Assembly (NCBI GenBank): GCA_950295325.1
Contig: OX485805.1
Span: forward strand, 16,169,501-16,233,500
Direction of reading: 5' to 3'
DNA: 64,000 nucleotides
DNA from: Polytrichum commune
Lineage: Eukaryota > Streptophyta > Polytrichopsida > Polytrichales > Polytrichaceae
Shown: positions 38,597 to 62,899 of the stretch, in pieces
Numbering within the stretch: position 1 is the first letter of the stretch
How the letters are laid out: each line of letters starts with the position of its first letter
Program-made: the position numbers and the translations under genes
Notes under the pieces: model-generated
What the model was told of the DNA's origin: nothing
The model's database searches: none
What the model saw: only the letters and a program-made list of their open reading frames with translations

Positions 38597-41150
38597 CTAG
38601 TTTGCAGACTTGTACGTAGAGATAGTAAAGATGCTTACAAGGTCGGAATGGACACCCGCGTCTACCCAGCTTAGCCATTGTCTCTTTGAACGCCGGGCAA
38701 TTGCAGTCTGGTAGGCACTGATTGAGAGATGGTAAACTGACTCCGTGGGAGCTGGTTTAGATTGCAAAGTTACAACGCATCCAAAACCGGGTTGAGGTAT
38801 CATTACTACCTTCAGAATACTTGCCTTCATTGCTCTAGCGGAATCAATGTTCTGCATGTGCTTCGAACTGGCACAAGTGATTGAGCGGTGCATGTTCTTT
38901 GACTTTCGTGTTTTAGGATAAACGTCCGCATTATCTGGCATTGGAACCTGTGACAGATCCGGTGGCGGTGTTGAACTGTTGAACGTGCGACTCACAGGAA
39001 CGCTTTGCTTTTGGGGAAGTTGAAATCCCGCATTCTCCAACGCCTCAATCTCGGAACGTGTGAGATTGGTCCCTATCTTCACAGGCCAAACCGACGGGAT
39101 GGGAGGTCGTTCCTCGTAATCCGAAAATGGCTCTATCCATCGTCGACGATACCCCTTCACACACCTCTCAATATCGTCAGCACAGAAAAAAAACTGCTCC
39201 ACCACCTTCTGGTTACCTTTTTGAGGGTGGGTCCAAAGGCCAGTGTATGTGGGAGTTGGTGTGCTCTTCCCGTTTTGGACGATACGGGATGTACATTTTT
39301 TTCGAGTGACAGCCATCTGCGCCCAACAAGCCTTCGCAGAAACCTTATTAAGTCGGGCAATGTGCCATAGCTTCTCATTCACACGAGTCTCCTCCACGGC
39401 CGTCACCCGTCCAATATCTATGCCAGTTGAGGCAGGGGGCTGTGCTGGGCGTTCCACTTCCACTTGAACTTCCTCCTGGATGGTACTCAAATTTTGAGCA
39501 CGAGCACGTGTCACCCTCCGACCCACTCGAGGACGTGAAAAATTAACAGTGTCTGGCCTATGAGTTTCTTCTTCGGCGCCAAGGGGAAGATCCGGCTTTC
39601 GTTTCCTCGACCCAAAAACCTCAGCTCCTTCGAGGTGTGCGTCTCGAGTACAAAAATCTTCGGCTCCGGGCATGTTCAAGACGGCTGCGTTCAGGGTAGT
39701 CGGATCCCCGGTTCGGTGAGCTCTGCGTTGGGCTGTCTGAAGTCGAAGTTCTTCTCTCGAGGGTCCAGAGCCTCCCGCTCCACCTTTGAGGTATTGATAG
39801 TACCCCACCACTTGCAGGAATGCTCTAACGTAATCGTCGACGGCTGCCACGTAGAGATCGCCACCCCTATTGCCGGACGCTTGCAACCATTTGTTGTGAA
39901 CGGTCTCAGCAAGGTTGCAAGAGGGCATTTCAGCTAGTTCATCCGGAGAATATTTCTTCTCCTATACGAAGGCAACTGGTTAGAAAATGTTCGGAAACTC
40001 AATTCAGCAAGGAGAAGTCGTGGTGGGCCATGCTTGCTGCAACGCATGGATCCCCTAAAAATAGATATATTTTTCAGAAGAAGTTGTTGAGACACTGAAA
40101 TAAATCGCAATAATGAAAACATAAAATTTAAAAGCTAAAGATTTGATATTGTTTAGATACTACATTAGACGCAGAGATAAGAGTGCAAACTTAAAGAATT
40201 ACAAAATTTGAATGAAAAAGTGCATACTTACCAGTTCCATGAATCCACCCCACTGCCTATATCGGAAATGCCAAAACGCTAGCCAGTGGTTCAAATGGTG
40301 GAGGCCAGCGTCAGAGGTTGCACCCAAAGATGTCCACCAGGCTTTGATTGCCAAGTAACGTGTTTCAGCCTCTGCCACAGACCGTGCATCTTTGTACTGC
40401 ATACATAATTTCTTGTGTTGATCTTGCAATTCGTGCACGATGTATTGTTTGGTGTGTTTTTCTAGGGATTGCGCCCAATGGAAATAACACGTTCGCTCGC
40501 AGCCTTCCATGGGTATCTTTGGGTCTCCGGATCCGTAGATGATGCGCACAGCGTTCCAATTGGCTTGCGCACTATCAACCATGAAACCTTTGAACTGGGG
40601 CTTGTGTATTCCATGCCTACCCATGACATGGTTAAGGTTCTTCCAGAAAACGAGTTGAGCATCTTTGTCCTCAGACTGGAAATCACAGCAAGCAATGGTG
40701 AGTACACGTTGGTAAGAGGAGTCGTACACGTGGCAGGCCATGGTGGTCCAGTTGGCAACTCATTTGACGTGGTCAAACATCATCCAGGAGTGCTCTAAAT
40801 CGCCACTAGGTTGCATTCGGCGGACAAGGTCAACACCGCTGCCATGTCCCACCTCGGACATCTTGAATATGAAGACCTTGTCGGAGTCGTCACCTTGGCC
40901 TGGAAACATGTTTCGTTGCACGTAGGCCCAGTTGCTCAGCCCTCTGAGCTTAGTGATGCCATCAAGAACGCCATATCTGCGCAAATACTTAAAACTGTAG
41001 ACACGGTTTTTTAAGTTAGGGGAATTGAGCTCCTTGTAGCATTGGAAGATAGGCTCTAGCTGTTCTAGAGAAAATAAGGTGGGAGGGTCGTCTTCTTCGC
41101 GGACCAAGACGTTACCTAAAACATCCTTGCTAGTTTCCCTGTCATTTAGG
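38597..41150 (-). pseudogene. MULE-like transposase, C-terminal half, two exons
   Basis: Exon C1 runs 41150-40232 and exon C2 39961-38597. The donor CTG|GTAAGT and acceptor GTATAG|GAG are good and the frame is kept. C1 carries a MULE-type RNase H core: FDHV (first Asp), a WTTMACHVYDS block, FMVDSAQANWNAV (second Asp) and a CYFHW zinc/His motif. C2 carries the C-terminal region with a basic VGRRVTRARAQ stretch and a final GCVVTLQSKPAPTESVYHLS block, perhaps SWIM-like. A TGA at 40760-40762 sits just after FDHVK; CGA arginine is its likely ancestor. Apart from that stop the frame is open to the terminus. The N-terminal half is missing here and is found at 61.6-62.9 kb on the same strand. Confidence 0.72.
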
Positions 41151-41171
41151 CTAGTCGTAAACATGGATGAA

Positions 41172-41400
41172 TGACGTGGCTGACCGTCTATGATGTATGC
41201 ATTGCGTGGCGTTACGTTATGTCCACGTCGACGTCCTCGTTGGCACGGGTGCCATGTCACCGACCACGTGGCGTTACGTTGTGTCCACGTCGACATCCTA
41301 GTTGGCACGTGTGCCATGTCACCGAACACGTGGCGTTACGTGGAATCCACGTCGACATCCTAGTTGGCACGGATGTCATGTCACCGACCACGCGGCTTCC
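41172..41400. repeat. 62-bp minisatellite rich in CCACGTC
   Basis: Three copies with GTTACG at 41214, 41273 and 41335 (steps of about 60 to 62 bp) contain TGTCCACGTCGAC, CCTAGTTGGCACG and GCCATGTCACCGA. The word CCACGTCA recurs in the region 60.88-61.60 kb at the opposite end of the proposed CACTA-like element. The minus-strand frame through this block is repeat sequence and not part of the transposase. Confidence 0.7.
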
Positions 41401-41502
41401 AGGTCAATTGGCCACGTCATCCAGCCACGTGGCATGAATGGTATATGTTGGTGCGCGGGTTCACATGTGGTCAAGTAATATATCGCCATGTGTCCATTAT
41501 GC

Positions 41503-41649
41503 AGTTCTTATGTAGTCGTTTTGAAGTTCTTATTTTGTCATTTTGTAGTTATTATGTGGTCATTATTTAATCGTTTCATAGTTCTTCTTTAATCATTTTC
41601 TAGTTCTTATGTAGTCATTTTCTAGTTCTTAGTTAGTACTTGTGTAGTC
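41503..41649 (-). repeat. 11-bp phased GACT/AACT array (left arm)
   Basis: On the minus strand, fourteen units beginning GACT, GATT, GACC, GACA or AACT follow each other at exact 11-bp steps from 41649 to about 41503 (for example GACTACATAAG, AACTAGAAAAT). The same spacing and core recur at 52.87, 55.84, 56.42 and 59.86 kb. Its position near one end of the 41.15-61.63 kb segment is where CACTA elements keep subterminal binding sites. Confidence 0.8.
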
Positions 41650-41699
41650 ATTCTGTGGGTGTTGAACAGTACATGCCGCAGACGTGAACTTGAATGGCG

Positions 41700-42059
41700 T
41701 GGCCTTCTGTGTTCTAAATGACTAAGAAGTCACTATTGAACAACTACATTCTACTTATTAGAGCTCGTGTTAATGCCATCTGTGAACACATTCAGCCATT
41801 GTTTACTCTTTTCTTAGTTGTGCATATCATTGCGTAAGCCGAGGTGAGAGGGGTAGCATTGTGAATGCATGCAACCCCCATTCAAACATTGGGATGCAGC
41901 CTCAATATGAAAGCATGAATCATACATGAAACACTACACATCTTTGAATTTGATTGTGGGGTTCCCAACAAAATCTGTAAGAGTGTTCATATGTGGGTTC
42001 ACAGTGTTTAGTGTAGGGAAGACCTTTATCTACTCCCTCCTAAGTACGTATAAGGAAAT
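41700..42059. other. Non-coding DNA, no gene seen
   Basis: Downstream flank of the FCP1-like gene. No frame or repeat that I can support. Confidence 0.45.
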
Positions 42060-42830
42060 TCACGCTGCTCTCAAACTCCTCTCATTCCAAAGTGTGCTGC
42101 CTCCCACTACGTCTTTAACTACCCACTGGTCTCCATCCTCGTGTGGGTAGGCAAGCTTCACATCACCTATGTGAGCAGTTGTCACATCAACTTTATAGCA
42201 AAATTGCGGAATCACCTTGAAGTGGAACTTGTCCACACCCCCTACGCCGCTGATTTTACCGGTTGCAACCTTGCGTCTCTTGTTTTTCGGACTCATGAGG
42301 TGCACACATTGCCCAACTTTAAATTGTACCTACACACCATCCTTACAACAATCAAATGCACACCCAATGAACTGTAGTGATCATTACAACAATGTTTCAG
42401 CAATGGATGCGGTGCAAGTAAAAATACAACTTCTAAGGGGCAAACCAATGAGGACGCAATAACAAGATCAAATGTGTCCACACCCAATATGGCTGCCTAA
42501 AATTGCGTAATTGGAATAAGAGTTTAGGGAAGTATTGGTGGAACCTGTTGTGTAGGCATCGAAGTATTGCCGGATGTACTATCCAGTGCCCTCACACTCC
42601 TTCGTCGCAATTCGATGGCCGGAACCACCTACACATGCAATCACAACCCAATTTGAATTAGTACTTACGGACACATGGTAGGAGGTGGGAAAAAATTCCA
42701 TTGTGAACTTCAAGTTCACAACGATCCCTCACCTCCTGGATACTTCCCAGTTGACTCTGCCATAGGAGTGCATGAGCCAGGCACTGCCATGTTCCTTGAA
42801 AAAGACTTCAGTTGACATATCCATGGTTGC
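42060..42830 (-). pseudogene. FCP1-like transposon gene, distal exons
   Basis: Distal part of the gene whose main exon lies at 43808-45327, now separated from it by a solo LTR. Directly beyond the LTR the frame continues to 42716. A putative exon at about 42625-42540 reads ELRRRSVRALDSTSGN between plausible acceptor and donor sites. The last exon (about 42343-42060) begins after GTGTGTAG with VQFKVGQCVHLMSPKNKRRK and continues with VKLAYPHEDGDQWVVKDVVGG. Its pattern (basic patch, glycine-rich turn, acidic GD block) vaguely resembles C-terminal domains of plant CACTA-associated proteins. Exon limits are approximate and the frame just after the LTR is uncertain. Confidence 0.45.
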
Positions 42831-42835
42831 CTTAG

Positions 42836-43807
42836 TGTCGCGCACCTCTCCATGAGGAGTGCCCGAAACACCATGGGCACAAGGGGGACCCCGGAGTGAC
42901 ACCCGGGACTTGTGGCGCCGTTGGTGAGAGGGCCCAAGTGATCCTAGTGTGGATGAGGTCCCCGGGCGTTGGGAACGCCTCCCATTCACGAAGACTAGGA
43001 GGCACAAGGGTAAGGCCATGAGCTATGCGTAGCTCATGGCGTGGTGATTCTAGAATGCTCAAGAACACCTCAATCCGAGGTGTGAGCTAGGAGTTATGGC
43101 CATTTGAGTGGGGCGCTGTCCCGGGACAGCGCCCTGCTACAGCAGTGCCTGGGAGTGATTCCCGGGACTGCCAAGGTTCAAACAGGCATAACTTCCTCAC
43201 CACTTGCCCGAATGGGGCAAGTGAGGAGTCCATCGGCATCTACGTGAAGCGTAGATGAAGATGGAGTGGTCAACTGTTAGCATCAGACATCATACAAGGA
43301 AGTTATGATGGTCTGAAGCTGCTGGGGGCTTCTAGGCCCAGCGGCTAAGGGAAAATGTCCACTTGGCCCCAACTCTTGGTAGAGAGACAAGAGGTTGGTT
43401 GACGGTGGGGTAGGGGCTCCGTGTAGAGTCCTAGAGGCTTATATGGGTGAGGTGGTGTGGCCTCACCCACCCGAGGCCGAACGGCAAGGCCTCCATGGGC
43501 TTTGGCCTATTGTGAGGCCATAGTTGCCTAGTATGGTGCGGGTTGTTGTAGTGTTGCTCCGGCAACGCGATGATCAACATAGGATTGGACTTCCATGGAT
43601 GGAAGTCCACATTGGGGAAATGGGTTACCGATTAAGGGGTGAGTCCCGAAAGCAAAGTAGGAGGGTTGGTTCCCTCCTATGAACTATTGGTCCGGGGTAA
43701 GAGGAGCTATCCATTAGCATGGCGGAATGCGAATGGTTAGCGCTCGTAACCTTTGCTAGAAACGAAAATTGGCAAGATTGTTAAGGGACCTAGCAAGGGT
43801 TGCGACA
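42836..43807 (+). mobile_element. Solo LTR, family A copy 2, with CTTAG duplication
   Basis: Complete 972-bp solo LTR. It starts TGTCGCGC and ends GGGTTGCGACA, so TGTCGC and GCGACA form terminal inverted repeats with TG...CA ends. CTTAG flanks both sides (42831-42835 and 43808-43812). The interior has strong palindromes: arms GGCGCTGTCCC/GGGACAGCGCC, CCATGAGCTA/TAGCTCATGG, CATCTACG/CGTAGATG and GTGGACTTCC/GGAAGTCCAC. It lies inside the FCP1-like gene, so it is younger than that gene. The last 17 codons of the open frame ending at 43756 are LTR sequence. Confidence 0.93.
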
Positions 43808-45327
43808 CTTAGTGACACATTAACAGCGGACCAGAAACTCGCAACGTCTTTGTGCGCATAGAGGCGTTGAAGAGCTGGCCATAAGTTTTCCTTTAAATAA
43901 AGATTGTCCTCAGATAAGTCCTTCACATGAGCAACATAGAAAGGGGGAGGGGCAATCACATTCCAGGGTGCATTGCAGTCCACCCTAGGGACATGGTGGT
44001 CTATCATAACTGTGTTGCTGCCATCCCAAGATGGCCACTTCTCCCAAACCTTGGTCAAGGGTTTCCCCCACAATGGCCCCTCGTCACTCTCTTGTATTAC
44101 CTCGCAATCCTTTGCTGCCCACACAAAAATTGGCTTATGGCCTTCCAAATGAGAAAACACGGGTAGGATCTCCTGTAGGACCTCTTCCATGTACTGTATA
44201 CTCTTCCTACCCCAAAATGCTACTTTGAAAAATTTAAAACACATGCCCAGGAACTCCATCATCCATGGCCGATACACCAACCTACGTGTCGTTGTTTTCT
44301 TGCTCACCCGAATGTTGGGATTCGGATTCGGTTGAGTCAATAGAGTGGTGTCAAGAAGAGTACCATGCACATTGAGTATCAATAATTTGGTGAGATTGGG
44401 AGGGTCCGCTATCGATGACATGTTCAAACTAGTCATGAGGCTCACCTGACCAACGTGCGCATTGTCATCAGCACCAGTGTCACCTATCTTGCTTGGTGAC
44501 ATGGTTTTCGGGCTTTTAGGACATGAAATTGACGATACTCCCTTCCCCGGAGACGTAACAAGGGTTGCAACCTCAGCAAGAACCGCTACATCCCCGCCCT
44601 CTACACCCACACTCCCACCCAGCCCACTTACGTCCTGGCCACTAGTCAGGCCGACCTTATTCCCCCTTGGACCCCCCCCTCCCCACTACCTTCCACGCCA
44701 ATGGCTGCCACCGCAACCTCTGGAGGTCCAGAGCCAACATCTGCACACCCACCATCGACCACCCCATCCCCCTGGCTCGCATTAGCTGGTGGTTTAGGCT
44801 GCCCAATAGCAACCTCTGCTGGAGCTCGCTTCTTGGCACCGCCCTTTGCCACCCTCCCTTTTTTCAATGCCTTCTCGCTTCTCCTAACTTTGACTCCCTC
44901 TTTACTATTCTCTTGCGACGCGGAGACTGCCTTTAGCTTCGCATCCTTGCTCCTGGTCAACCTAGTGTAGGTTATGGGTTGGCCTTCACCTTCACTACGA
45001 ATTGATGTGTTATCCACCACATCCACTGGCAGCGTATTGGAGGTTCCCACGCGATCCGTGGGGGACTGATCTTGGAGGTCGCACGGAGATTTGGGGAGGC
45101 TACAATGCACGTCCTGGTTGTTCGCCGTCGTCTTGGGTTTGCTCACGCTCGTCTTGGACTCTAGTTTATTCATGATGGAGGTCACCATGGCTGCTAAGGT
45201 ACTCAACGTTACGTTCACATCTTTTAATGCTTGCTCGTTGTTTTGGCCAGTCATTACCATGCTGGCCATTTGCCGCCTGAATTCAGTCTGGTTGTGCTCC
45301 ACAGCGGAGAGGCGGGCTGACACTCTC
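43808..45327 (-). pseudogene. FCP1/NIF-phosphatase-like gene in the transposon
   Basis: The main exon begins after CAATTTCTAG at 45327. It encodes a short helical region (RVSARLSAVEHNQTEFRRQM), a Ser/Lys-rich basic linker and then an FCP1/NIF-like HAD domain: LLILNVHGTLLD (about 44370), VYRPWMMEFL, VAFWGRKS, FVWAAKDCE, KPLTKVWEKWP, SNTVMIDHH and NAPWNVIAPPPF, all in family order. The family nucleophile motif is DxDGT; here it is NVHGT, so both catalytic aspartates are lost and phosphatase activity is not expected. A run of eight G on the coding strand (about 44672-44679) shifts the frame between linker and domain; a one-base length error or true indel would explain it. The gene is cut at 43808 by the solo LTR. 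Confidence 0.65.
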
Positions 45328-45880
45328 CTAGAAATTGCTTGTTGTGCAATTAACACACAACCCACTTCAATAAATAAACATGCTCTAGTTGAAACCTGCC
45401 CATCCTCTCCCAGATATGTTGTGCATTGTAAGGATTGTTGCATATAGATTGTTGCTGCAACTACATTATGACACATATACTTGTCACTACAAGTACAGCC
45501 TGAGAAAAAAATGACTGGAGCCAACTAGATAATGACAAAAAAATGCCTGTATCTATCACTATTAGAAAATCATGACCAAATCAACAAAAAATCAACAGAT
45601 CTTTGTCGATCCGGGCACTGCAATGACCGATTTCACTGATTTTTGAATTTTTGTAAAAATCAACTGTTTATTGCCTACATTTTTGTTGATTAGAATAGTA
45701 CAATGACCAAATCAACAAAATTTTAGTAAATGTGAAATCTTTTTGGAATATTCTAGGATCTATTGGAATATTGTAAAATCTTTTTAATTTTTTGCAATTT
45801 ATGGACTTGTAAGTGTATGGGTATGGAAATAATTACGAATTCAAAGGTGTGTAAATATTACAAATATTATATTAGTTGAT
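45328..45880. other. Upstream flank of the FCP1-like gene
   Basis: The minus-strand frame continues open to 45524 but contains the acceptor at 45327, so this part is probably intron or leader. AAATCAACAAAA-type words recur between 45580 and 45730 and again near 47085. No other gene is seen. Confidence 0.45.
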
Positions 45881-45889
45881 TGTTAATAT

Positions 45890-46432
45890 TATATATATAT
45901 GTATATATTAATATATATATGTATATGAATTAATATGTATATAATATATGTAACATATTATATATATATATATATGTATATATGTATATAATATGTATGT
46001 ATATAATATATATGTATATAACATGTATGTATATAATATATATGTATATAACATGTATGTATATAATATATATGTATATAATATGTATGTATATAATATA
46101 TGTAACATATATGTATATAATATATGTAACATGTATGTATATAATATATGTAACATATATGTATATAATATATGTAACATATATGTATATAATATATGTA
46201 ACATGTATGTATATAATATATGTAACATATATGTATATAATATATGTAACATATATGTATATAATATATGTAACATGTATGTATATAATATATGTAACAT
46301 GTATGTATATAATATATGTAACATATATGTATATAATATATGTAACATATATGTAACATATATGTATACAATATATGTAACATGTATGTATATAATATAT
46401 ATGTATATAATATATAATATATAAATATGTAT
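45890..46432. repeat. TATATGTAACATGTATGTATATAA microsatellite/minisatellite
   Basis: A long AT-rich array of ATGTATATAATATATGTAACAT words with a basic period near 32 bp after an initial TATATGTATATAACATGTATG stretch. Stop-free frames of up to 168 codons exist on both strands purely because the period avoids stops; they encode only Tyr/Ile/Met repeats and are not genes. Confidence 0.92.
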
Positions 46433-46737
46433 ACATTTACAGTAAATATATACACTATATATTTACTGTAATTATATACAGTATATATTTACTGTAATTA
46501 TATACAGTATATATTTACTGTAATTATATACAGTATATACTTACTGTAATTATATACAGTATATATTTACTGTAATTATATACAGTATATATATACTGTA
46601 ATTATATACTATATATATACTATATATATTTACTGTAATTATATACTGTATATATTTACTGTAATTATATACTGTATATATTTACTGTAATTATATACTG
46701 TATATATACTGTATATATTTACTGTAAATATATACAT
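46433..46737. repeat. Palindromic TATATTTACTGTAATTATATACAG array
   Basis: A second, sharply different tandem array follows the first. Units of 24-30 bp contain TTACTGTAATTATATACAG, whose TACTGTA and TACAGTA words are inverted partners, so the whole array can fold into hairpins. Its boundary with the preceding array is abrupt near 46432. Confidence 0.88.
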
Positions 46738-46800
46738 CAAGTAGGTAGTAAAGAGAAAATAGTGGCCTTATTCTAGAAAGGTTTAAAACACTCCATTTAT

Positions 46801-46987
46801 ATCATGTGTGATGTGATGACCTAGTGGTTAAGGCACATGTGTGGATGTCACTAGGTGCAAGGTTCGATTCTCGTGGCCGACACCTTCGGCTTGGGCCTTG
46901 CCACCTAGGTGAGTGGTAGGTAGTCTATACTTTGTAGGTGAGGTATAGGTTGAGGGTTACTTGGGAGGTGTTAGGAAATGCAGATCT
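46801..46987 (+). mobile_element. tRNA-derived SINE
   Basis: TGACCTAGTGGTTAAGGCA (about 46816) matches a tRNA/RNA polymerase III A box and GGTTCGATTCT (about 46861) matches a B box, at a distance appropriate for a tRNA-related head. A G/T-rich unrelated body follows. TCCATTTAT occurs immediately before (46792-46800) and after (46988-46996), consistent with a 9-bp target duplication. No homopolymer tail of length is left. It is not a tRNA gene, because the rest of the cloverleaf is absent. Confidence 0.72.
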
Positions 46988-47042
46988 TCCATTTATTCAT
47001 TTTTTATTTTTTAATGTAATATATATATATATATATATATAT

Positions 47043-49881
47043 AATAAGTTTTTTTTTAAAAATCTTTTTGTGACCATATCAACAGAAAAAAATCAACAAA
47101 ATTGTGTTACATCATGTCCAGGTCAACGCGTCCTAAGTAACAACCGCGACCAACGCCTTTCTGTTGATCCAGACGTAGAATTTTCTACTAGTGTATCAAG
47201 CATCACTTTCAGGTTCACATTTCGGTTACAGTAGTATACAACAGATTTCTACACATATAGATACTTGCAACTGATCACTTTTTATCCACTAATTGATGAG
47301 GCCCTCACTATTAATGACTCTCATATGAGATTAACAAAGCAATTAACATAAACAAATGCCGCGCTTGACTACTTCAATTGTCACAAACTGCAGTCAACTT
47401 TGTTGCTAAGTGTTTTGAGGCCATTCATGCATGTTTCTTGATATGTACATAGTAGCAACATGAGATACTATGATGTTTAACATATCAGGTTCCCAAACCA
47501 AATTGAAAATAATATAACATATGGACCCCTGTATTGCAATGCTTTGTGGTGAGGTGTGGATCTATGAACAGACACATGAAAACCATGTGTATAAAAGACA
47601 CCGAACTATTGAGGATAAAAGTTGCTAGCCATTCTTAGCTTACTAATCAACAAGACTTGGGGGGAAATGGAGGGCTACATGACCACTTAACTAGCACAAC
47701 CATCTTGACTTTCAAAACGAATGACACATTCGTACGAGCTTCAAACATTGTGGGGCAAATGGTACACCCATGATTTACTGTTGCTAGTCACCTCACATTT
47801 ATCCTTCTTTCACATCCTATAACACGTGGGTGCACAGAGGGTAGCTGCGTAGTCAATGTGTCTAAGCAATTACATAAAATCCCACATACAGCTTTTCAGC
47901 CTTGAAGAATTGGAGAGTGACATGGAGTTCACTTATGACCCATAACCTAAATCCTCCTAACTGACATTGGTTAAGTTATCTTCACGCCGCCCCTCCACAC
48001 ACCTCTTTCAAACCTACCTCACATCACCCTTAATGAATATTTACAAAACAACATTGAGCAATGGGACATGAAATTGAGCCCGTTGGCCATACCCCGCTCA
48101 AGAATCAATTGTTTGCATGTCAATCTCTCACATGCAAGATTACTTCCACAAAGTTTGCAAGTATAAATATTTCATGCATTCATCAAAAGCAGTTTGGCCT
48201 TTAACCCCTAACCGCATACCACATTACACTCGATTGGCCCTCCATGTTCCATACTAGGTGTACATATAATACCGTGTCTTAGTTTACACCCATTTCAATA
48301 TGTGCTAACTTGCTACTACATGTTACTACTACATATTGTACAATTGATTCAATCTTCAAATACTTCAAGCTATAGGTACTTTAACCGCTTTTAATATGTA
48401 TTATTGGGTTCAATTTGGAGATGTTGGAGCTATCGTATGGCACTCTCACCCACACTAGTCAACGTGTATCCAACCATTAGTTATGTGGGTACATTCAAAA
48501 CTACAAAAACCTTTGAATGTACCTAACATGGTGTATACCTAATATCCCCAACAAGTAGGACAGTCAAATTTGACTTGGTTCAGGGGATTGAGATTATATC
48601 TAGCATCACTTAACACAAAGAGCATTGATAATATACAATATGTCACAATGGTGATGAGATTTCAATGGCATGTTTTTGACTCTAGATCAGTTAACACAAG
48701 CCCAAATATCTTCTTCTTCTTTAATTGGTTTTTTTAGCATTTATGTTGTTCCAATTGGCAATTCATGAATGAGTTTATTTTAGGTGGGTTTACTCTTAAA
48801 CTTTTAATTTAGAAGAGGAAAAAGTACCTTAAACAACTCCCTGCAATGTCCTTATGCCCATGATAGGCCTCTTTGACCCATAAGGATTAACAATGAAACT
48901 CTTCATACATGGGAGAGAGGGAATTATTGTTTATGACTGTACCTTTCATTCATCCAACATAAAAGTTATGATATACTTGGTATTACTTTTAAATGTGATG
49001 TGACAACACCATTAGCCTCAAATGACCCAAGTTAATAGAGACATACAGACTTAAGATGCTTTAGCCACAAACTTATAGATGGTCAAGATTTTAACTGGAC
49101 AAATAAGAGGTACACTCGTATGCAACAAATCCCTCCTGGTTGTTAAGGAGACACGCCTAACTCCAACACAACAATATTTAATCACATGTATTTGAGTGGT
49201 ATGTGGTTATGTGGTTACAAATAAAATGTTCGACACGCTTTATACCATCACATGAGACTTTCAAGTTTCAAGTTTCAACTTTCCTGGTTCCGAGTTAGAG
49301 TTGCACGAAATTATGACCAGACCATTGCGTCATTAGCGACCTAGGGTGTCCAAGTAATCGAGTCACCGGCAAATTAGAAGATCCCCACTTACTTCTTTAT
49401 CTACGAAAGTCTAAGTCATCACTGGCTACATTCAATTGGTTATGGGACAATTAACTTTACATTACCGAAGCACAGATTCCTAAGGACTAGGGTCCAAAAG
49501 CATGCTGATCCGAAGTATAATTTGATGTCCTCTCATTTATAACACACCACTTAAAGAATCAATTTGCATTCTACTTAAAGTCAAAGATTATTCCACCGGA
49601 TTATGTGTTTGCATCCCCATGATGTACCTCCCACGAATCTACATTAGGACACAACAATGACTGCAAGGACCTACACAAACTGAAATGCTTATGCCTGAAA
49701 GCTCTCTACATTGGGAAGACTCCACGTCAACTGCTGGTACCCTCAGACACCAAAAACCACACATTTCAAGTACACATGGACACAGGTGCATAAGTATACA
49801 AACTCTAACACATTTAATTAGAAGGTGGATTACTCACAGAGGTGCATGCCCCTGTCTGCTCCGATTCTTGCAAGTCCTCGG
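47043..49881. other. Non-coding part of the CACTA-like element
   Basis: Preceded by a short TA dinucleotide run (47020-47042). No coding region, terminal repeat or tandem structure is evident over about 2.8 kb. It separates the TNP1-like gene from the FCP1-like gene and may hold the TNP1 3' region. Confidence 0.45.
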
Positions 49882-52869
49882 CTATCTCGGTGATCCCGGG
49901 ACTCCTCTGTCTTTTCTTCTTCTGGAATCAATAGCATGCGGACGTTCATTAGGAAGCTTTTCAGTCATAACAACCTGAACTGAACAATGACTGAAATGAA
50001 TGTATGAAGTTACAAGTGCACGTAAGTTCAGGACGACACTCACCAACAAGGCTTCTTTACCGGCTTTGCCAGCCCTCCCGACGTTGGACTGATTCTTTAC
50101 GGCCTTCCTCGCGTTCGCCATTCTCAAAGCCTTTTGCTCGGTTTCGGGATTCGACCAATACTCGCAGAGACGTGCCCATTGATCCGGCTCAATGAAAACC
50201 GGGCACTCTTTCTTGCCACCCAGATACCATGCCTTCATTTTTGACCTCTCGGTCTTCATCTGCCTTTTCACTGCATTCTTGAAACCCCTGTCGGATAGGG
50301 GGTTCCCCACATATTCAAACTCCTTGTCCGGTGCACCCCTTAGTCTCTCAATGCTGGAGGGAGATTGGTCCTTCCACGAAACGCAGCTCACGTCTAGTAT
50401 CCTAGGTACCAGGCTCCGTAGTGCTTCGTCAAACTCATTCTTGCCTTCGCAACCTCCATCTATTCCTCCACCCGCCTTGACCCTCACCTTCTGCGGTTTC
50501 TGTCCAACGGCACGCCTTGCATCCATGGCTTCCTCCACTTCTTTCTTGTGCGCTCTCCTTGCTGCCCTGGCCTCGCTCTCCGGCTTCACCGTGGGCCCTT
50601 CATGTTGTGGAGCCGCTGTCGCTTGGGGAGGCTGCATCCATGGACCGGGGTATTGTTGTGGCGGCATCCACGGGTTGGGTTGTCCCATCATCCACTACTG
50701 CTGCTGTGTAGTCTGGGGCGGCATCCATGGTTGTTGCATCCACGGTGGATTGTTCAACGGAGCAACTTCTGGTTGCGGAGGGGCCATGGTTTTCGCCGGA
50801 GATACGTGTGCCTTCTGACCAAACACAAGCACGATGACAACACATTTGGGCTAATGTCAGATCTAGTAAAACCAAATAAAATTGATCATTAGTGACTCTG
50901 CCTGCACCAATCTTTTAGAGCATTCAAAAGAAGGTCAGAAGTTGGATAAGATTGTGATGAAGGAACACTAAAACCATGGTTTGATTTCAAAGGAGCTGAA
51001 CCCAGATCAAATGTAGGTCAACATTTGGCTTTAAAATGGAGAAAGTGGTTGCAAACTGAGAAGTAGAAATACTAAGACCAATGTGTGCTCTTAATAGAGC
51101 TAAACCCAGTACTAAGACCAGAAAACCGGTTTAGCTAACTCCAAATCTCAGCCTGCATCAACACTTTAGATCATTCAAATGAAGGTCAGAACTTGAGCTC
51201 GTCATATATTTATATACTCAACAGAGCAAGCTATGCTAAATATATAAAGGGGCTAGCCATTGCATGCTCACATGGCCAAATTTGGACAGAATCCTGCCAG
51301 GACTCTTCAAAGAGGTCATGCACAACAATGTTACATGAAAATCAAACAAGGAATACACAAACGTGACAGAATAAAAGACTTTTTTCTACCTGCTTCATGA
51401 GCTTTGCAAGAAGAAATGGAGAGAGGGCTTTATCGCATAGGAGTGTACCTCTGATTCATCAAACATAAAAACTTGACCCCTATAAGTTTGTGGGCAATTC
51501 ACCTGAAATGACTTCAACTTGAACAACTTGGGGAGGGGGAAAGGAGGAGCTATTTCCAGTTTCAAATTTTGTAAATTTAATATTAACCCCCAGCTGCATA
51601 CGACTTCAGGGCTTTAATGTTGAATGATTGAGAGGTATAAGTGACATTTTCTTCCTATTATCTAAGAACATGGAATTTACCTTCTTAGGCGGGCTCTTAA
51701 ATATTTGTCGGGACCGCCTTTTTGTCGCACTTGACCCGAGCCGATCCCCAGATCTGTGTCGCAGCGAATGAACATCTTCGTCTTCTTCCTCGTCTGCAAT
51801 CAAATTTACATCCACACAGTCAGTTGCGTGCGGATGGGTGTGGTGTCAATCAATGTAGACCAATTTAGAGCTCGAAATTATGAGCATAAGACCATCAGAA
51901 AAGTACCGAAATTGGAGCCACTAGAATCCCCCATTCATGTTCAATCAGAAATTGCAACGTGGTTTAGGGTAGTCGTTCCAATCATAACAGCTCTAGTGCC
52001 TAGCCAAAGAAAAAATGTTAGTCTTACGTCACTCTTCCTCTGCCATCTTTCTGTGTATTTTGCTTCAAACGAATACGTAATTCACCTATATAACAAATAT
52101 TCAGATTAACTATATTAAGTAGGTACAGCTGAAGCAACTGTGGAAATACTCCACATGAAAATGAACACCAACTAATCATTCAATTGATGTCTACTTGATA
52201 CAACAAGAGGACAATGCATTAAACGTATTCAACATCACACTCATTGACATGGGCCATGTGAACTTACATATCATACTAATCCAGGAGTTTTGGGTTGCTG
52301 CAAACTGATGATTAGAGACCAGAGTGCTACCTTACTTGCTGGTGATGGTGCTTTTAATATGATCTTGAATAAAAAGGACTGTAGGCCCTTGTGTGGTCTC
52401 TACTCAATTAACCACCTATATTAGAGTGGTATGTGGCAAAGCTGAAAATGAGAATAAAGAACAAGTACACACGTGCCTACTTATAATGTGCACAACTATC
52501 AGCTAGGAATCTGCAAGACTAACCAACTCCATCACAAGGTTTTTTTAGGCTTTTAATGCTTTTAACAAGCACAACCTGATTGACCTTTAAGGGATGCACA
52601 CACCATTTTATTCTACCAGGATGATTTTTATTTAATCACACATGACCCAGATTCAAAATCACACATGATTTTTTACCATGTGTATTTTAGGTTTACCTAG
52701 ATAGTTTAGGGATGGTTGTGTATTCAGGGGCCAACTTAAAGACATGTTTACAGAGCAAAACTCTGTCACCATAAGGGGCACCCAAACAACCTTTAGATCC
52801 ATTGGTTTAGGGTGCATCGCACTGGTTGTTGCAATTAGTCGACACAATGTTGTAATACAAACACACAAT

Positions 52870-54419: not shown

Positions 54420-54945
54420 ACCAAATTACCCCTAAACTCTAACCAACCCTCACTAACCCTAACCCTCATCCCCCAAGCTCACCCACATGACGCCCTCAAC
54501 CCTCACCACATCCCCAAACCAAAAGATCTTCAAAACCCACACATCAAGGCACCAGATTACCCCTAAACTCTAACCAACCCTCACTAACCCTAACCCTCAT
54601 CCCCCAAGCTCACCCACATTTCGCCCTCAACCCTCACCACATCCCCAAACCAGATCCTCCTCAAAACCCACACATCAAGGCACCAGATTCCCCCTAGACT
54701 CTAACCAACCCTCACTAACCCTAACCCTCATCCCCCAGGCTCACCCACATTTCGCCCTCAACCCTCACAACATCCTCAAACCAAATCCGAATTCAAACCC
54801 ACCCATTGCAGTACCAGATTACCCCTAAACTCTAACCAACCCTTACTAACATCAAATCCCATCGCTCAAGAAGACCACATTTCGCCCTCAACCCTCACCA
54901 CATCCCTCAACAAAATGGGAATCAAACCCTCACCCATTAAGGTAC
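54420..54945 (+). repeat. 131-bp tandem repeat with telomere-like words
   Basis: Four units beginning near 54421, 54552, 54683 and 54815. Each contains CCCCTAAACTCTAACC, CACTAACCCTAACCCTCATC (lost in the fourth), a CACATTTCGCCCTCAACCCTC block and ACCACATCC. The CTAACCCTAACCC words resemble the plant telomere repeat on its C-rich strand but are only two to three units long. The array lies in the first intron of the TNP1-like gene. Confidence 0.88.
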
Positions 54946-55671: not shown

Positions 55672-56615
55672 GGTATTCTTTACTCAAAACTGAGGACCGT
55701 ATTGGAGCCTCGTGCCTTCATCCCAATGCTGCAATACGCCAGACCGATGGAGTGCATGCTATTTAGGGGCGGGGCTCTAACGGATACATGGACTCAAGCT
55801 AGGGTTTCCTTACGCAGAGCTGCCAAATTTGAAGAACGACTAAGTAACGACTAGTGAGTCACTGTTTAGCGACTTAGAAGTTTCTGTTGTTTGACTAGGG
55901 AATGACTGCTGAATGACTTGCTTACGACCAATTTCTGACTATTGAAAGACTAGTAATAATCGAACCCCTGACGAGACGCCACAACCCTATAAGCTCACAA
56001 AATGTGTTCATTCTGTTGCGTCAACCCTCTGGGCTAAGTCATGTGCATCGCCATCTTTATTACGTGGAGGATAATTTCGCCAGGTTGGAGCTAGGAGTGT
56101 TACCCCGGAGCATGGTTAAAACATATCAACCTATGTGCTGAAAACATACCAACTTCCCAACAACATGCTCGTCCCCACAAACGTCTACTCCGCATTGAAT
56201 GGAGGGACCAAAGATCGGCGCATTCTCAATAATCACAATCAGATACATGTTGCCATGCTCCAGGTTACCTTTATTCAAATGGGGTCTACTCTATAATATT
56301 CCTTAGCATGATTGGCAAATCACCTGTAGTTTAGAACTTCAGCATGTGAAATCTCAAACTCAACCGGGTCATATGTTACTAGATGACGGTCCCCCCCCCC
56401 TTACATTAGTGAACAAGGCTGCCGACTAGTGAATGACTAGTAAATGACACGGGGATGACTAGTGCATGATTGCACAGACGTGAACGACTAGTGTGTGAGT
56501 AGTCTAAGACCAGTTTATGACAGATGAACAACGACTCAATGGGTGGACACAACCATGTTTAGGGGTCTGATATTAAAGCCGCTGATATGTGCATAGTGGC
56601 AAGCCTGCAGGTTAC
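55672..56615. promoter_or_regulatory. Divergent TNP1-TNP2 intergenic region
   Basis: 944 bp separate the start codons of the two transposase genes, which point away from each other. Two arrays of GACT units in 11-bp steps lie here: 55838-55958 (eleven steps, for example GACTAGGGAAT, GACTGCTGAAT, GACTATTGAAA) and 56424-56540 (GACTAGTGAAT, GACTAGTAAAT, GACTAGTGCAT and others, with two spacing breaks). A run of ten cytosines lies near 56391-56400. The arrangement suggests a shared bidirectional control region whose repeated sites could be bound by the element's own TNP1 product; this is inference. Confidence 0.55.
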
Positions 56616-59600
56616 ATGGACCATCGAAGACTCCCTCTTAGTGACAGGAGACGGCAACAACTTCGAGACGACCATTTGTGGAGGAGGGAGCAAGAGAGGG
56701 CCAGATTGTATGGCTTGAGACGAATTCATTGCCCATGCTCCAAATGCAAGGGACGGGTTCAATGCTCTATTGCAAAAGTGAAGGACCATCTAATCCGAAA
56801 TGGGAGGGAACCCAGCTTCAGAGTGTGGAGGGGGCCTGGAGAGAGGGACGGATCCGATGAGGAGTGGGAACAGGAGCTTAGGAGACCCCCAGGAGCACAT
56901 GACGGACACATTGACGAAGGGTTGGATATGCACGCGATGGTTGAGGACGCATTCACAGAAATTGATGAGGCACCAGCCCCCCCCACTACATTGGAAGATC
57001 AGTTGGAGGACATAGTAATGGGTGCCTTCACAGTTGTCGATGAGTTGGCCCATGATGACCACGAATTTTCTGACGATGAGCTAGAGGACGAGGTTTTGGG
57101 GGAAATTGGAGGTGGCATTGCAGAGGAAGACAATTATGGTGATCCGCACGAGTTGGAAACGGCAATTGAGGAGTTGTACCATGGCGCAAAGTCTTCGGTG
57201 TTGGCCGCAACGATATTAATAATGACATTGTGTACGGTCCACGGTGTGAGCAACAAGTTTGCGGACCAGCTATTCACCCTCTTCCGCGAACACCTACTAC
57301 CCAGTGAGAATATGCTACCGAAAAACCTTCATGCTGCAAAAGGCTTGATTTCAAAATTAGGATTGAACTACAATACAATTCATGCATGCCAAGGAGGATG
57401 TGTATTATTTAGAGGGCAATATGAAGGTGCAACTCATTGTCCAAAGTGTAAGAAACCACGTTACAAAGACGAGGCCAATAAACGGAGGCCTTGGAAAGTA
57501 CTTAGACACTTTCCCCTAATTCCAAGACTAAGGCGTATGTTCCGTACACCCACAATATCTGAACTCATGGTGTGGCATGCAAAGAACACAAGCAGTGATG
57601 GATTGGTAAGACATCCTTGTGATTCAAAGGCATGGAAGCACGTACATGAAAATGTAGATTATAGTTTTGGCCAGGAAGACCGCAACATTCACTTAGGAAT
57701 GGCGGCCGATGGAGTAAACCCTTTCAAGTTGCAACGTACCAGTTGGAGTACATGGCTGGTAATGTTGCTAAATTACAACATACCCCCATGGCTGACTACG
57801 AAGAAATTTTTCATAATGTTGGCGTTGCTAATCCCAGGAAAACAGTCTGTGACATCTCAATTCTTCGATGTGTACTTGGAACCTTTGGTGGAGGAGTTGA
57901 TCCAACTATGGAAGGGTGTGGATGCTTATGATGTGCTCAAAGAGGTGGGGTCAAGGGCCTTCAAACTTAGAGCAATTTTGTTGTGGACCATACACGATTT
58001 TCCCGGTTATGGAACAGTTGCAGGTGTTGCACATCAAGGCTATGCGGCATGTCCTGTGTGTGGGCCTCATTTTAAAGGTGAACATTCTATCGAACTTGGA
58101 AAGCAAACCTATACAGACACAAGGAGGTGGCTTGCCCATGACGATCCGTGGAGATCACCGGAAATGAAAGACCACTTCAATGGACGTATAGAAGTTCGCG
58201 GTAAGCCCAATGTGGTTAATGCAAATGAGCAAGTGCAGCGAGCCACCGAGTATCAAACCTGGTTGGATGCAGGCAACAAAGAGGGCGCCGCTAGAGACCC
58301 CTCCAAAACACACGGCGTGAAAAGGAGGAGCATCTTACACAACCTGCCTTATTGGAAGGTATATGTTCCAGCTGCTTTGACTCAATTGTTGTATGCATCC
58401 TCACAGGGAACGACATGTCCAACTTAAAAAAGACTTAAAAACGACTGAAGTTGCTCATAGATGGCATAGACAAGTGCACGTGTCAGAAGCATTTAGTTGT
58501 TGAGTAGTAGCATAATAGTCGTTTACCATACACATGGACACATGTCCATTAACATAGTCGTTTGAAAGTCGTTTACAGTACATATGTTCAACCAATGGAA
58601 ATGACTACGAGAAACTACAGGTCTGGAAACGTGGCAACACAGACGAGAGTATATGCTCCCACGACCCATCCATTAGTACAGTCGGTGCGTTACAATACGT
58701 CCACAATGACACAACGTTAGTAGTCGTTGTAGACATCAACGACGTAAACGCCAGTCGTAATCGTAGTCGTTATCGGACGAGTTTCCGCAGGGTCCTTTCA
58801 CTAACTAGTATATGACTATATTGCCAGGATCTGCTCATACGATACACTCTGGATGTTATGCATTGTGAGGCAAACTTTTCGAAGAACATATTGAAGACAG
58901 TCACAGGACACAAGGACACAGTAAAGGTCCGCCGGGACCTGCAACGCAGAGGCATCAGGCCGCATTTGTGGCTCATTCCCCACCCAAGGAAAAATGGGAA
59001 AATGTTGAAACCGGCGGCCCCGTATGTGTTGACAAACGAAGAGTTCGAAGTATTTGCCAGTGTTATCGAGAACCTGAAGACACCATCAGGACATGTTTCC
59101 AACGTGACGCAGTACGTACAGAAGAGGACGTTCGGGGGTTTAAAGTCGCATGACTACCATGTGCTTATGCAGCAAATCATGCCACTAGCACTACGAGGTC
59201 TTTTACAACCTGGTCCACGAATGGCGGTGATGAGGATTTCGAAAGTGTTCCGAAGGATATGTGGGAGTGTTTGGAACCCATTGGAGTTTGAAGCTCTTCA
59301 GGCGGACGTCGCACGGAGCATGGCACTTCTGGAGATTCATTTCCCTCCCTCATTTTTTGACATTATGACGCATTTATTGTATCACCTTGTCGATGAATTG
59401 GACATGTGTGGTCCCGTCTCCACAAGGTGGATGTATCCTATTGAAAGATACATGAAAACCCTAAAGCATTATGTTCGGAACATGGCAACACCGGAGGCAT
59501 GCATGGCGGAGGGTTACGCAAGGGATGAATGCCTAGGTTTCATCACGGAATACCTACACAAGTTTGAAGTGGTTGACCGTCGAGTATGGGATGCGGATGA

Positions 59601-60758
59601 GGAGTACGGAGATGCAGAGGAGGTGCTAGAAGGGGCAGGAACAAAGTACTTGATGACACCAACATTGAGAGATGTAGCCCACCAATATGCTTTGACGAAT
59701 TTATCCCTCATGGCACCTTTGCATAGGTGAGTGTGACCGTGTTTTTTCTGATTGCACATTCTTGTGTCAATGTGCCCTGTTATTTTGCAAAACATGAACG
59801 CCTCTGTAAACCCCTACTGCCTGAGCGGGCGGATGAGTCCGTCATGAATAATGACTGACTAGTAAATGACTAATGAGCGACTAGTGAGCGACTCATGAAT
59901 GACTATTGAATGACTTATGAGCGACTAGTTAGCGACTGGTGAAGGACTAGTGAATGACTTATGAGTGACTATTGAGCGACTGGTGTATGACTGGTGTATG
60001 ACTATTGAATGACTGGTTGGATGTACAGGCAATGGAAAGTGGAACGGGAGGCGAATCCCAACATCTCGGCTTTTGAAAACTGGATTAAAGACGTAGTACG
60101 CAATCACCCTGTTGACCCGAACGATGAGGATGACATGGATAGGGTTCTGATGTGCAGCAGACCGTCACAGTTAGCCACACGATATACGAGGATGAAGGCA
60201 TATGGAAACCACTTTCGGGTGGAGGACCAACAGTCCAGGACATTAAAAACCTATGATAGCGGAGTTGCCTCTGTGTTTCACATGCCCTCCGAGGGTTCGG
60301 AGGAGGTGACATTGAATTATGTGGGAGTACTAAAGGATATACTAAAATTGAACTATGGACCAATTCGTACGCCTGTCATACTTCTTAGGTGCGAGTGGAT
60401 GAAGCAATTTGACAATTGGGGCAATCCAACGTATGTAAGAGATGAGGCTGGATTCATGGTCGTGAATTTCCGCCACAGGGTTCCTCAAATGTTGGATCCG
60501 TTCATATTTCCCAACCAAGCGACTCAAGTATTTTGGTCAGACGAAGTGCGGAAACTGGGGTGGAAAGTAGTTTTGGCAAAGGAGGCACGCTCCCAAAGAC
60601 ATGAACAGAGCACACAAGATGTCTTCATGACCACCACCGAAGAAACGGATGGCATGCAGTTGGCAAACCATGTGCCTCCCCCGCCCACCACAGCCTCATT
60701 GGTGGGAGCCATAGAACTATCAGATTCCGATAACTCATTAGCACTAGCTAAATTTTAG
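56616..60758 (+). CDS. CACTA TNP2-type transposase, intact three-exon frame
   Basis: Three exons, 56616-58358, 58828-59726 and 60029-60758, join in frame with consensus borders (AAG|GTATAT...CCAG|GAT and ATAG|GTGAGT...ACAG|GCA) to give 1123 codons without a stop. The N-terminus has a Transpos_assoc-like CPCSKCKG cluster (Cys39-Cys44), then an acidic region. The Transposase_21 core has AADGVNPF (Asp365) and TIHDFPGYG (Asp461), two presumed catalytic carboxylates, with a CPVC knuckle after. Exon 2 holds LDVMHCEANFSKN and the DUF4218 region (FFDIMTHLLYHLVDE, GPVSTRWMYPIERYM). Exon 3 is DUF4216-like (VLKDILKLNYGP, VILLRCEW, FIFPNQATQVF) and ends with a SUMO-interaction-like IELSDSDN. The first ATG is chosen; the open frame extends nine codons further up without one. 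Nothing visible prevents function. Confidence 0.88.
58430..58775. repeat. AGTCGTTT-rich TNP2 intron 1
   Basis: Intron 1 (58359-58827) contains GACTTAAAAACGACTGAAG near 58427 and repeated AGTCGTTT words, some 11 bp apart (AGTCGTTTGAA, AGTCGTTTACA near 58558-58575), the inverse of the GACT core. The array is less regular than that of intron 2. Confidence 0.6.
59857..60016 (+). repeat. Perfect 11-bp phased GACT array in TNP2 intron 2
   Basis: Fifteen GACT tetramers start at exact 11-bp steps from 59857 to 60011, consensus GACTRNTGANN (for example GACTAGTGAGC, GACTATTGAAT, GACTGGTGTAT). The array fills half of the 302-bp intron 59727-60028 and ends about 15 bp before the splice acceptor. It is the clearest example of the motif found across the element. 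Confidence 0.92.
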
Positions 60759-60829
60759 GTGTTTGTTTTTACAGAAGCCTAGCTGGGGTCACAAATGTCC
60801 TTAGTGGTTGTATTTAACAATATTGTGAC

Positions 60830-61625
60830 TGAACTACAACTTACTATGACTGAACTACAACTCTACTATGACTCAGACGTCCACGTCATCGAGTACGTGG
60901 CATGATAAATGAAAATTATTGTTGTTGCCCAGTGCCCTCCATTGAACACATGATTTCAGACATGCATCATATGTGCACATTGGCAATGTATATCTTCCAT
61001 ATATGTACTTGCAATCTGTTGGAGAGTCATAGTTAAGTATGGGTTGGTGAAGGGCAACACAGAAATGATTGCACAGTTGCTATGTGAGAGTTGTCTTGGC
61101 ACGTCACACCGGCATGGATGAGTTGGACGATGAATAACTAACCGCAAACCAAAAGTTGCACATGTCATCCACGAGTCATTTCAGTAACTGAACAATGACT
61201 AAACGCTTGTACACGTCATCCCAATTTTGGCGGGCGTGTGAGTCAGTCATTGAGCTCGAAATTCGTAGTCATTCTTTTGACAGGTCACTATTATCGAGCA
61301 TAATTTTCATTCAATTAATCCCTAATTTCCACGTCATCAGAGGGATGTAAGTGCCACATCACATATTTGTGTTATTTTTAAATAATAGTAAACACGTAGT
61401 CGTTAAATCACGACCAGACAATGACTAACAGTCAGCCACGTCAAGATATTCTATCCACGTCATACACGAATGGATGTAGTGGATGAAATTTGTTAGACAT
61501 AAAATGAGTATGTTGTGCGGTCGTCAACAGAGTTCATCTTTAGTCATTTAAATGACTAAACAATGATTCACATGTTAGCCACGTCACACAAGGTGACTTC
61601 ATCAGGCATCACAGTCGTTTAATGA
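60830..61625. repeat. Right subterminal region, CCACGTCA and TGACTAA words
   Basis: Downstream of TNP2, GACTGAACTAC and AACTCTACTAT occur in 10-11 bp steps near 60832-60880. Then CCACGTCAT words (about 60890, 61330, 61440, 61455, 61580) and AATGACTAA words (about 61195, 61420, 61550) recur. The same two words dominate the opposite end at 41.17-41.65 kb. This is expected of subterminal repeats at the two ends of a CACTA-type element. Canonical CACTA terminal nucleotides were not identified. Confidence 0.6.
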
Positions 61626-61630
61626 GTTGT

Positions 61631-62899
61631 TTAGGACACTGAGTCATTGATACCCTGGTTGGAATGGACAAGGTTTGTTGTAGTGACAGGATGCTTATGG
61701 TTGCCTACATGGACGCAAGCACGCTCTTGCGTATCATCTTCAAAAACGTAAAAGATTTTTGCATCACAAGAGGCTACACAAACAGGAGGTTCTTTACAGA
61801 TCTTACAGACTAATGTTGAAGTTGGAGGTGGAGCGTCTGCAACAGGGAAGGCATCTTTGGAAGAACCTTCGAACTCGACCTCGTTCACTCCATATGCGCG
61901 TTCAGGCCGCTGCAGAAACCCACATTTGGGATTGTGGCATTGAAGATGACCTACACAGTTAGACGACCGGAATGACAACCCCAGCGTGTTACTGATGTTA
62001 GTAGTCATAGTCTTTGTCCATATATGGCCATCGTAACGTTTGTCCATACATTCCATAGATTTAGCATTCTTATGGACTGCAGATGGAAGGGTGGGAGGAA
62101 GAATGAAGATTACATCCCCATTGAACGACGGTGGCAGGAAATCTACGTTCTCAGTACAGATAGAATCATAATTCAGTTTCTTAAGAACTGACTTGCTTCC
62201 AGGCATACTACCTAGGGAACGAAGGGAGGGAAGAATGTTTATCAGTTTTGTAGTTTGCGAAGGTATAAGGAAATGAGTAGTCCTACGTGAATCTTGAGAA
62301 GAAGAGGGAGATGGACGCTTAGCACTAGACCGGATTGATGGATGGGAAGGCCTCCCCTCATCATCAGAAGAATCGGACAAATCGATGCTAACGCGGAGAC
62401 CTGGCTCGATCTTGACACGAGATAGTAAGGGGGCTTTAGTGCACAGTGTAGAGGAACTGCGAGGAGTGAGGAGGACTGTAGTAGCGTTCATGGACTCTGA
62501 CAAGCCAAAGACGCGATACTTTCCGGGCTTGAGTTTCCAAACGCGAGCATTATTGTCTAACATTACGGCCTGGACGTATAAGGAATAAAGGACATTTTGA
62601 GTTTCCGGATTGACAACATCTGTCTCTAACCACAAGCTATCAGCATCGAAACCAAAACGAATGGATAGCCACTGGAGAGTGAGATCAGCGGTTCCATCAG
62701 GGCCAGGAGGTATGCATGTAGGGATAAGAGATCCAAGAGAAACAAGTTCGATGACATCGACGAGTGGAGCTTGGACAGCAGCGGAAGACATTGAGAAACA
62801 ATTTGACAATGCTATGTGAGAAGGAATTTGCAAAAGGGGGATCGAAAAGAAACAATGGGATATATACATGAGAGGTTGATGAAGACGTTGGACATCCAA
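61631..62899 (-). pseudogene. MULE-like transposase, N-terminal half
   Basis: An open frame of 422 codons; the internal ATG at 62791 (MSSAAVQAPLV) is the more likely start because the first 36 residues look hydrophobic and fortuitous. The region has a Ser-rich linker with a SUMO-interaction-like VSIDLSDSSDDE, then a Cys/His cluster with HLQCHNPKCGFLQ, LVCKICKEPPVC and ACVHVGNHKHPV, a zinc-binding DNA-recognition type seen ahead of MULE transposase cores. The frame ends about 20 residues after the last histidine, just where CACTA-like subterminal repeats begin. The expected catalytic core is absent here and matches the minus-strand gene half at 38597-41150. I infer one gene split by insertion. 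Confidence 0.65.

Follow-up and report, generated by a model that had tools for sequence, protein, structure and literature searches.

The question raised by this locus of Polytrichum commune is whether two pieces of coding sequence on its minus strand, separated by some 20 kb that carry genes of CACTA (En/Spm) type, are the halves of a single MULE-like transposase gene that another transposon has split. The window, the whole stretch of 64,000 nucleotides analysed (contig OX485805.1, C3:16169501-16233500), is numbered from its first letter, and the same numbering ("window-scale") is continued beyond its end. All searches for further copies were made within the same genome, 408 Mb in 64 contigs; the matches listed for the pieces of the split gene, for tnp2 and for the FCP1-like open reading frame (ORF) are the best-scoring ones and counts taken from them are lower bounds. 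The answer is almost certainly that a CACTA element inserted into the transposase coding sequence of a MULE-like transposon and that the insert has lost its left end. The insertion of one transposon into the coding sequence of another had been proposed in an earlier note on this DNA, and both intact copies encoding one protein and CACTA copies elsewhere in the genome support that interpretation.

The two half-genes are present on the minus strand where they had been placed, at 61.6-62.9 kb and 38.6-41.15 kb. The N-terminal half (query 61631-62917, minus strand, 428 residues) has at least 99 matches in the genome, the nearest family among those listed being 87-98% identical with most members ending at query residues 413-418, and a second family standing at 43-47% identity. 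The catalytic piece (query 40199-40759, minus strand) has at least 150 matches. At many places in the genome both pieces lie within one open frame of 756 or 781 amino acids, as at C3:57643321-57645585. Five uninterrupted copies, which are without CACTA sequence, were compared with the window; four of them (L001, L002, L004 and L005) have a complete frame of 756 amino acids and the fifth (L003) has a stop near its start, yet is open for 660 amino acids across the junction. The two halves of the window are therefore one gene in uninterrupted copies of the same genome, the relatives that the earlier note had suggested looking for. The closest copy, L001, is collinear with the window on both sides of the insert, as far as 41138 to the left and from 61684 onward to the right; positions 61684-61685 are common to the split gene and the CACTA end by chance, and the limit of the gene is 61686. 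Ninety-nine bases of L001 (3756-3854), or 33 codons within a single uninterrupted frame, are absent from the window. That an ordinary intron separates the halves, an idea already judged not to fit the reading phase, is rejected because the uninterrupted copies have one open frame and because these bases are lost. The window copy is damaged elsewhere too: a stop interrupts the frame at 40760-40762, and the frame changes within the C-terminal ORF.

The limits of the insert are sharp. A query spanning the right junction gave 40 matches, and 35 of the 39 outside the window end at query position 386/387 (window 61685/61686), with two others ending at 390 and two at internal breaks. The left-junction query gave 23 matches, of which, leaving the window aside, 15 start exactly at query position 12 (41141), seven later and none earlier. 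No second copy of either window junction was found by the genome search with these queries. The split gene breaks off at 41138 and 61686, not at 41.15-41.17 and 61.61-61.65 kb as first estimated. The CACTA-type subterminal words at which the halves had been said to stop cluster toward the two ends of the insert: AATGACTA occurs three times in the left subterminal stretch (860 bp), five times in the right one (926 bp) and in neither gene half, and CCACGTCA occurs two and five times in the same stretches and once and not at all in the gene halves.

Thirteen CACTA copies read at both ends have 13 different flanks, so that an element made up of all five genes together is rejected; the five genes do not always occur together, the split gene being found uninterrupted without CACTA. 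In all 13 the left terminus lies 152 bp (153 in one) to the left of the position corresponding to 41141. The left end reads CACTACAAGAAAA in 12 copies and CTCTACAAGAAAA in one, the right end reads ...TTGTAGTG, and identical 3-bp target duplications are found in 12 of the 13. Terminal inverted repeats and the 3-bp duplication, both seen in the relatives, together with a tnp2-type transposase and subterminal repeats, place the element in the CACTA (En/Spm) group. Termini and target duplication had been left unresolved for the window; its copy has an exact right terminus and no other, and because the CACTA left end is deleted, neither the inverted repeat nor the 3-bp duplication can be found there. 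The words GTCGTAAACA (41154) and GTCCTAAACA (61628, other strand), which had been put forward as facing terminal inverted repeats, are rejected as termini since both are internal, GTCGTAAACA being 165 bp away from where the left terminus truly lies in the relatives.

Three steps explain these observations best. A MULE-like DNA transposon entered a long terminal repeat (LTR), generating a 10-bp duplication; a CACTA element then moved by cut-and-paste into the MULE-like transposase coding sequence, its right terminus remaining exact; and, later or in the same event, the left junction was probably broken and repaired by end joining. At that junction the CACTA left terminus is short of 152 bp and the transposase gene of 99-102 bp, and 2 bp have been added. 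If the ACA that follows the CACTA right terminus is the duplicated triplet, its left copy would likewise have disappeared, and the gene would have lost 102 bp. Neither element can now move alone: the MULE-like one has a split transposase from which 33 codons are missing, and only one terminus is left to the CACTA element. The TNP2 frames of the window appear to be uninterrupted and might in principle serve other copies in trans. The nest shows, at base resolution, how a DNA transposon can destroy a second one and afterwards be left without one of its own ends.

Several points weigh against this account. The evidence comes from the assembled sequence, and an assembly error in the 20-kb interior is conceivable, though both junctions are sharp and collinear. 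The 3-bp duplication is invisible at the window site, where its left copy would fall in the deleted stretch, and one of the 13 CACTA relatives (C5:6983609) is flanked by ccc/cct rather than by identical triplets. As to the left junction, an aborted or one-ended transposition, in which TNP2 mishandled one end and the deletion arose at insertion or during an attempted excision, is conceivable though doubtful. Such an event would suit a loss that is limited to one end, removes DNA on both sides of the junction and carries a 2-bp filler, but the same trace is left by an ordinary break with end joining, and the solo LTR and the frame shift within the window CACTA make later damage plausible.

Nested transposons as such are ordinary for a repeat-rich genome, and it is the second gene of the CACTA element, with its FCP1-like domain, that is worth following. 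Among the genes that the earlier note recognized between the halves, TNP2 (Transposase_21, E 7e-61, with matches to Transpos_assoc, DUF4218 and DUF4216) and the FCP1/NIF-like part (E 1.8e-11) are clear, whereas the TNP1-like part is present but weak, its Transposase_24 match (E 0.0013) falling below the curated cut-off; five of six family members match Transposase_24, the best with E 0.0001. The TNP1-like and FCP1-like parts had been listed as separate genes; both exist, but very probably they form one spliced gene on the strand opposite tnp2. The TNP1-like frame lies upstream of the FCP1-like part on the same strand. Among the 19 sequences given to the splice search, the donor end was found in nine and the acceptor start in 14. 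A phase-0 GT(A/G)NGT directly follows the conserved TNP1-like end in all nine, and the FCP1-like exon starts at a phase-0 CAG/CAAG (boundary at the slash) in 12 of the 14, the window and L051 reading CAA, with a pattern preset to two glutamines and hence to CAG or CAA. The two parts stand 364-838 bp apart in five loci, as against 4705 bp in the window. An AT-rich satellite of 24- to 26-bp units (45930-46760) lies in the putative intron (the CACTA copy at C1:31794303 lacks this stretch), and four 131-bp tandem repeats (54420-54943) lie between the two CACTA genes.

The FCP1-like part accompanies tnp2 well beyond the window. The tnp2 search yielded 75 matches (72 of 871 candidates scored) and the FCP1-like ORF search 107 (128 of 329 candidates scored); 72 of the former and 72 of the latter entered the linkage test, extra pieces of included loci being omitted and rows within 3 kb merged. 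An FCP1-like match lies within 45 kb of 46 of the 71 best-scoring tnp2 loci, against a mean of 1.26 and a maximum of 7 in 1000 random placements, and in all 46 it is upstream of tnp2 and on the opposite strand. Among the matches listed, no tnp2 lies within 45 kb of 26 of the FCP1-like loci, and the eight tnp2 loci with an identity of 64% or below are all without an FCP1-like partner. Eight of the 46 linked loci match the FCP1-like query in the linker only, as counted by eye from the query ranges; in two such copies (C4:22821822 and C3:34205424) the domain is missing and the ends and duplications are intact. An intact CACTA element of a distant family (C5:10443362-10456438, 13077 bp), with identical 12-bp termini CACTAGAAGAAT...ATTCTTCTAGTG and the duplication TCT, contains FCP1-like, TNP1-like and tnp2 frames.

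The Pfam profile NIF (PF03031) is matched by all 13 aligned domain copies, and the single match in the PDB is UBLCP1 (3shq, E 2.6e-8), which identifies an NIF/FCP homology domain; the D-x-D and the motif IV DD of an FCP1/SCP-type phosphatase are not what the copies carry. In motif I, 16 of the 17 copies have N-x-H-G-T and the remaining one D-V-H-G-T, the pattern having been preset to N or D followed by HGTL and all 17 copies given having matched it, and motif IV reads ID-H in all 13 aligned copies where UBLCP1 has DD. The alignment comprises 13 of the 17 copies (all except L050, L051, L058 and L062) and the estimation of the ratio of nonsynonymous to synonymous substitution (dN/dS, Nei-Gojobori) 14 (all except L051, L058 and L062). 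The ratio is 0.10-0.47 in 53 of 63 listed pairs and ten pairs gave no value, the pairs being non-independent, some recurring between lists and several having dS above 1. A single-sequence fold of the window domain failed (predicted local distance difference test score, pLDDT, 40.9). The domain evolves under purifying selection although its catalytic aspartates are replaced, and the simplest reading is that it would be a non-catalytic module.

It may be, and this is put forward tentatively, that the protein with which a CACTA lineage binds its subterminal repeats was assembled from two sources, a TNP1-like part and an FCP1-like phosphatase acquired by capture, and that the latter lost the catalytic aspartates, kept its shape and could now serve as a phospho-peptide binding module, for instance for the RNA polymerase II tail, tying the transposition complex to transcribed chromatin or shielding the element from silencing. 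The opposite view, that the domain is passenger DNA captured by the CACTA element and has no role for it, seems unlikely. It accords with the two domain-less copies whose ends and duplications are intact, with the linker-only loci, with the absence of partners for the most diverged tnp2 loci and with the frame shift in the second gene of the window, but it leaves unexplained the linkage to tnp2 in constant position and orientation, the low dN/dS of most pairs and the phase-0 splice signals that match those of the TNP1-like exon. If the domain is instead a non-catalytic one kept by selection across diverged CACTA families, one could test whether a pseudo-phosphatase is the means by which a transposon makes contact with the transcription of its host. 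In annotation the domain is a trap, as such CACTA copies will be named host phosphatases.

Other NIF genes were encountered in the genome. Tandem host-like NIF genes in L065 (1885-2892 and 3366-4253; C2:43149594-43151611) have DVDG and DVNG in motif I, with IDD. A second, very large NIF repeat family, which makes up most of the best 150 of 965 NIF candidates in the genome, is represented by L084 (3623-4405; C4:1883242-1883823), L083 (3704-4477) and L085 (2772-3617), with frames of 257, 261 and 281 amino acids, the motif DLNG and DD or DS in motif IV. Its frames of about 500 amino acids had no persuasive match in Pfam; in L087, some 10 kb off, there is a frame weakly like a protein kinase. Among the matches listed, linkage of this family to MULE-like loci did not exceed the random maximum, with 3 pairs within 5 kb (random mean 0.52, maximum 4) and 10 pairs within 30 kb (random mean 3.0, maximum 10).

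For the interrupted element, the idea that the two halves were never one gene, being separate genes or gene fragments captured side by side, can draw on the fact that each window half stops where CACTA sequence starts, and is refuted by the uninterrupted frames of 756-781 amino acids at many genome places and in L001, L002, L004 and L005. The element measures 13852 bp in the L002 copy and 12770 bp in the L001 copy, with 10-bp duplications GCGCACATAC and AAGGTTAAGG, respectively. In the window the copy has its 3' end at 38025 and its 5' end beyond the window, at window-scale 80467 (C3:16249967), and is flanked on both sides by the 10-bp duplication GTAAGAGGAG. The comparison of target duplications took in the window copy, L001, L002 and L005, and in L005 alone no matching duplication was found at the ends. 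Target duplications of the MULE superfamily are about 8-11 bp. The terminal inverted repeats, GGGCGTTGCTAGGGCATGAGCGTAGAGC and GGGGAAAGTTACAGCATGAGCGTAGAGC, are imperfect over the outer 13 bp and alike further in, with GCATGAGCGTAGAGC common to both. The MULE profile PF10551 has no match to the intact frame up to E 10 and none among five members of the split-gene family up to E 1; no PF10551 locus listed in the genome is a split-gene copy, among those compared, and a profile comparison with the genome's own PF10551 family was negative, with thin alignments. A D...D stretch and a CxC...CxH stretch, resembling DDE and SWIM-type zinc motifs, were seen in the split-gene frames by eye only. The label first given to the gene is kept as MULE-like only, with the 10-bp duplications, the imperfect repeats and the motifs noted by eye in its favour and the Pfam profile against it. 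About 2.2 kb between 63158 and the 127-bp repeats is present in L001 and L003 and missing in the window. The copy at C1:1520737-1534588 (L088, L070 and L002) has frames of 308 and 262 amino acids opposite the transposase strand, possibly further genes of the element.

Table 1. Features of the Polytrichum commune window, in window coordinates.
Feature	Position	Strand	Remarks
LTR, first 869 of ~972 bp, interrupted by MULE-like element	37156..38024	+	96% to solo LTR 42836-43807
10-bp target duplication GTAAGAGGAG of MULE-like element	38015..38024		second copy at window-scale 80468-80477
MULE-like 3' part	38025..41138	-	terminus GGGCGTTGCTAGGGC at 38025; C-terminal ORF 38597-39961; catalytic part 40199-41138
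2 bp (CT)	41139..41140		matches neither intact gene nor CACTA relatives
CACTA element without left terminus, in MULE-like transposase coding sequence	41141..61685	+	20.5 kb; 152 bp missing
Left subterminal repeats (CCACGTCA, AATGACTA words)	41141..42000		62-bp tandem units 41205-41396
Solo LTR (TGTCGC...GCGACA) inside CACTA	42836..43807	+	CTTAG target duplication both sides
FCP1/NIF-like domain	43759..44403	-	N-V-H for D-x-D (motif I); ID-H in motif IV
Coiled-coil-like and linker part of second gene	44646..45341	-	frame-shifted relative to FCP1-like ORF
Putative intron	45342..50043	-	GT donor, acceptor CAA for CAG; enlarged by AT-rich satellite
TNP1-like exon	50044..50694	-	weak Transposase_24 match
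TNP2 frame	56586..58427	+	Transposase_21, Transpos_assoc
TNP2 frame	58816..59730	+	DUF4218
TNP2 frame	60009..60758	+	DUF4216
Right subterminal region	60760..61685		terminus GTTTGTTGTAGTG at 61673-61685 (TAGTG 61681-61685)
MULE-like N-terminal transposase half and upstream part	61686..63158	-	transposase half 61686-62917
127-bp tandem repeats of MULE-like element	63156..63559		
LTR retrotransposon start within MULE-like repeats	63560..64000	+	TGCGT target duplication; extends to window-scale 77709

The rest of the outer LTR is found past the end of the window, at window-scale 80478-80578 (C3:16249978-16250078). The solo LTR within the CACTA element belongs to the same family; the CACTA copy at C1:31794303-31812984 does not have it. 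The retrotransposon at 63560-77709 interrupts the 127-bp repeats and contains two reversed LTRs, 67853-68826 and 73876-74851; GGTAT flanks this pair on both sides, and it is therefore probably a second retrotransposon. From the nesting it follows that the outer LTR was entered by the MULE-like element, and this in turn by the CACTA element and the 63560 retrotransposon, in either order, before the solo LTR and the reversed retrotransposon were added. Among the matches listed for the split gene, tnp2 and the FCP1-like ORF, broken transposon copies seem to be many on C4 at about 42-59 Mb, an impression rather than a count.

The element resembles known CACTA (En/Spm) transposons such as Tgmt* of soybean, which is also 20.5 kb, in its CACTA termini, 3-bp duplication, subterminal repeats, tnp2 transposase and TNP1-type second function (PMC2613891); it differs in having a second gene that runs opposite to tnp2 and includes an FCP1-like domain, and in that the window copy has no left terminus and lies inside the coding sequence of another transposon. 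CACTA elements of Chenopodium and other seed plants are described as having a conserved ORF1 (TAD, Transposase_21, DUF4216) and, beside it, a variable ORF2 in which Transposase_24 and further domains may be found, a pattern shared by the present element; the additional domains named are Peptidase_C48, Transposase_24, Orbi_VP1, SANT and ribosomal_S8e_like, and FCP1, NIF and phosphatase are not mentioned in the main text of that paper (PMC8978399). The variability of CACTA ORF2 is thus already known, and no report of a CACTA element with an FCP1, NIF or phosphatase domain, in the second gene or otherwise, was found in the open-licence literature searched. A further parallel is with MULEs that have captured a plant mobile domain, for which an anti-silencing use has been proposed: these too are DNA transposons retaining a host-derived domain, but of another superfamily and with another domain, no FCP1-like domain figuring in the portions of that paper relied on here (PMC5418596). 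In relation to the FCP1/SCP-type phosphatases themselves, of which UBLCP1 is the structural representative matched, the CACTA domain keeps the NIF profile in every aligned copy and a motif IV that aligns with that of UBLCP1, and departs from them in having N-x-H for D-x-D and ID-H for DD.

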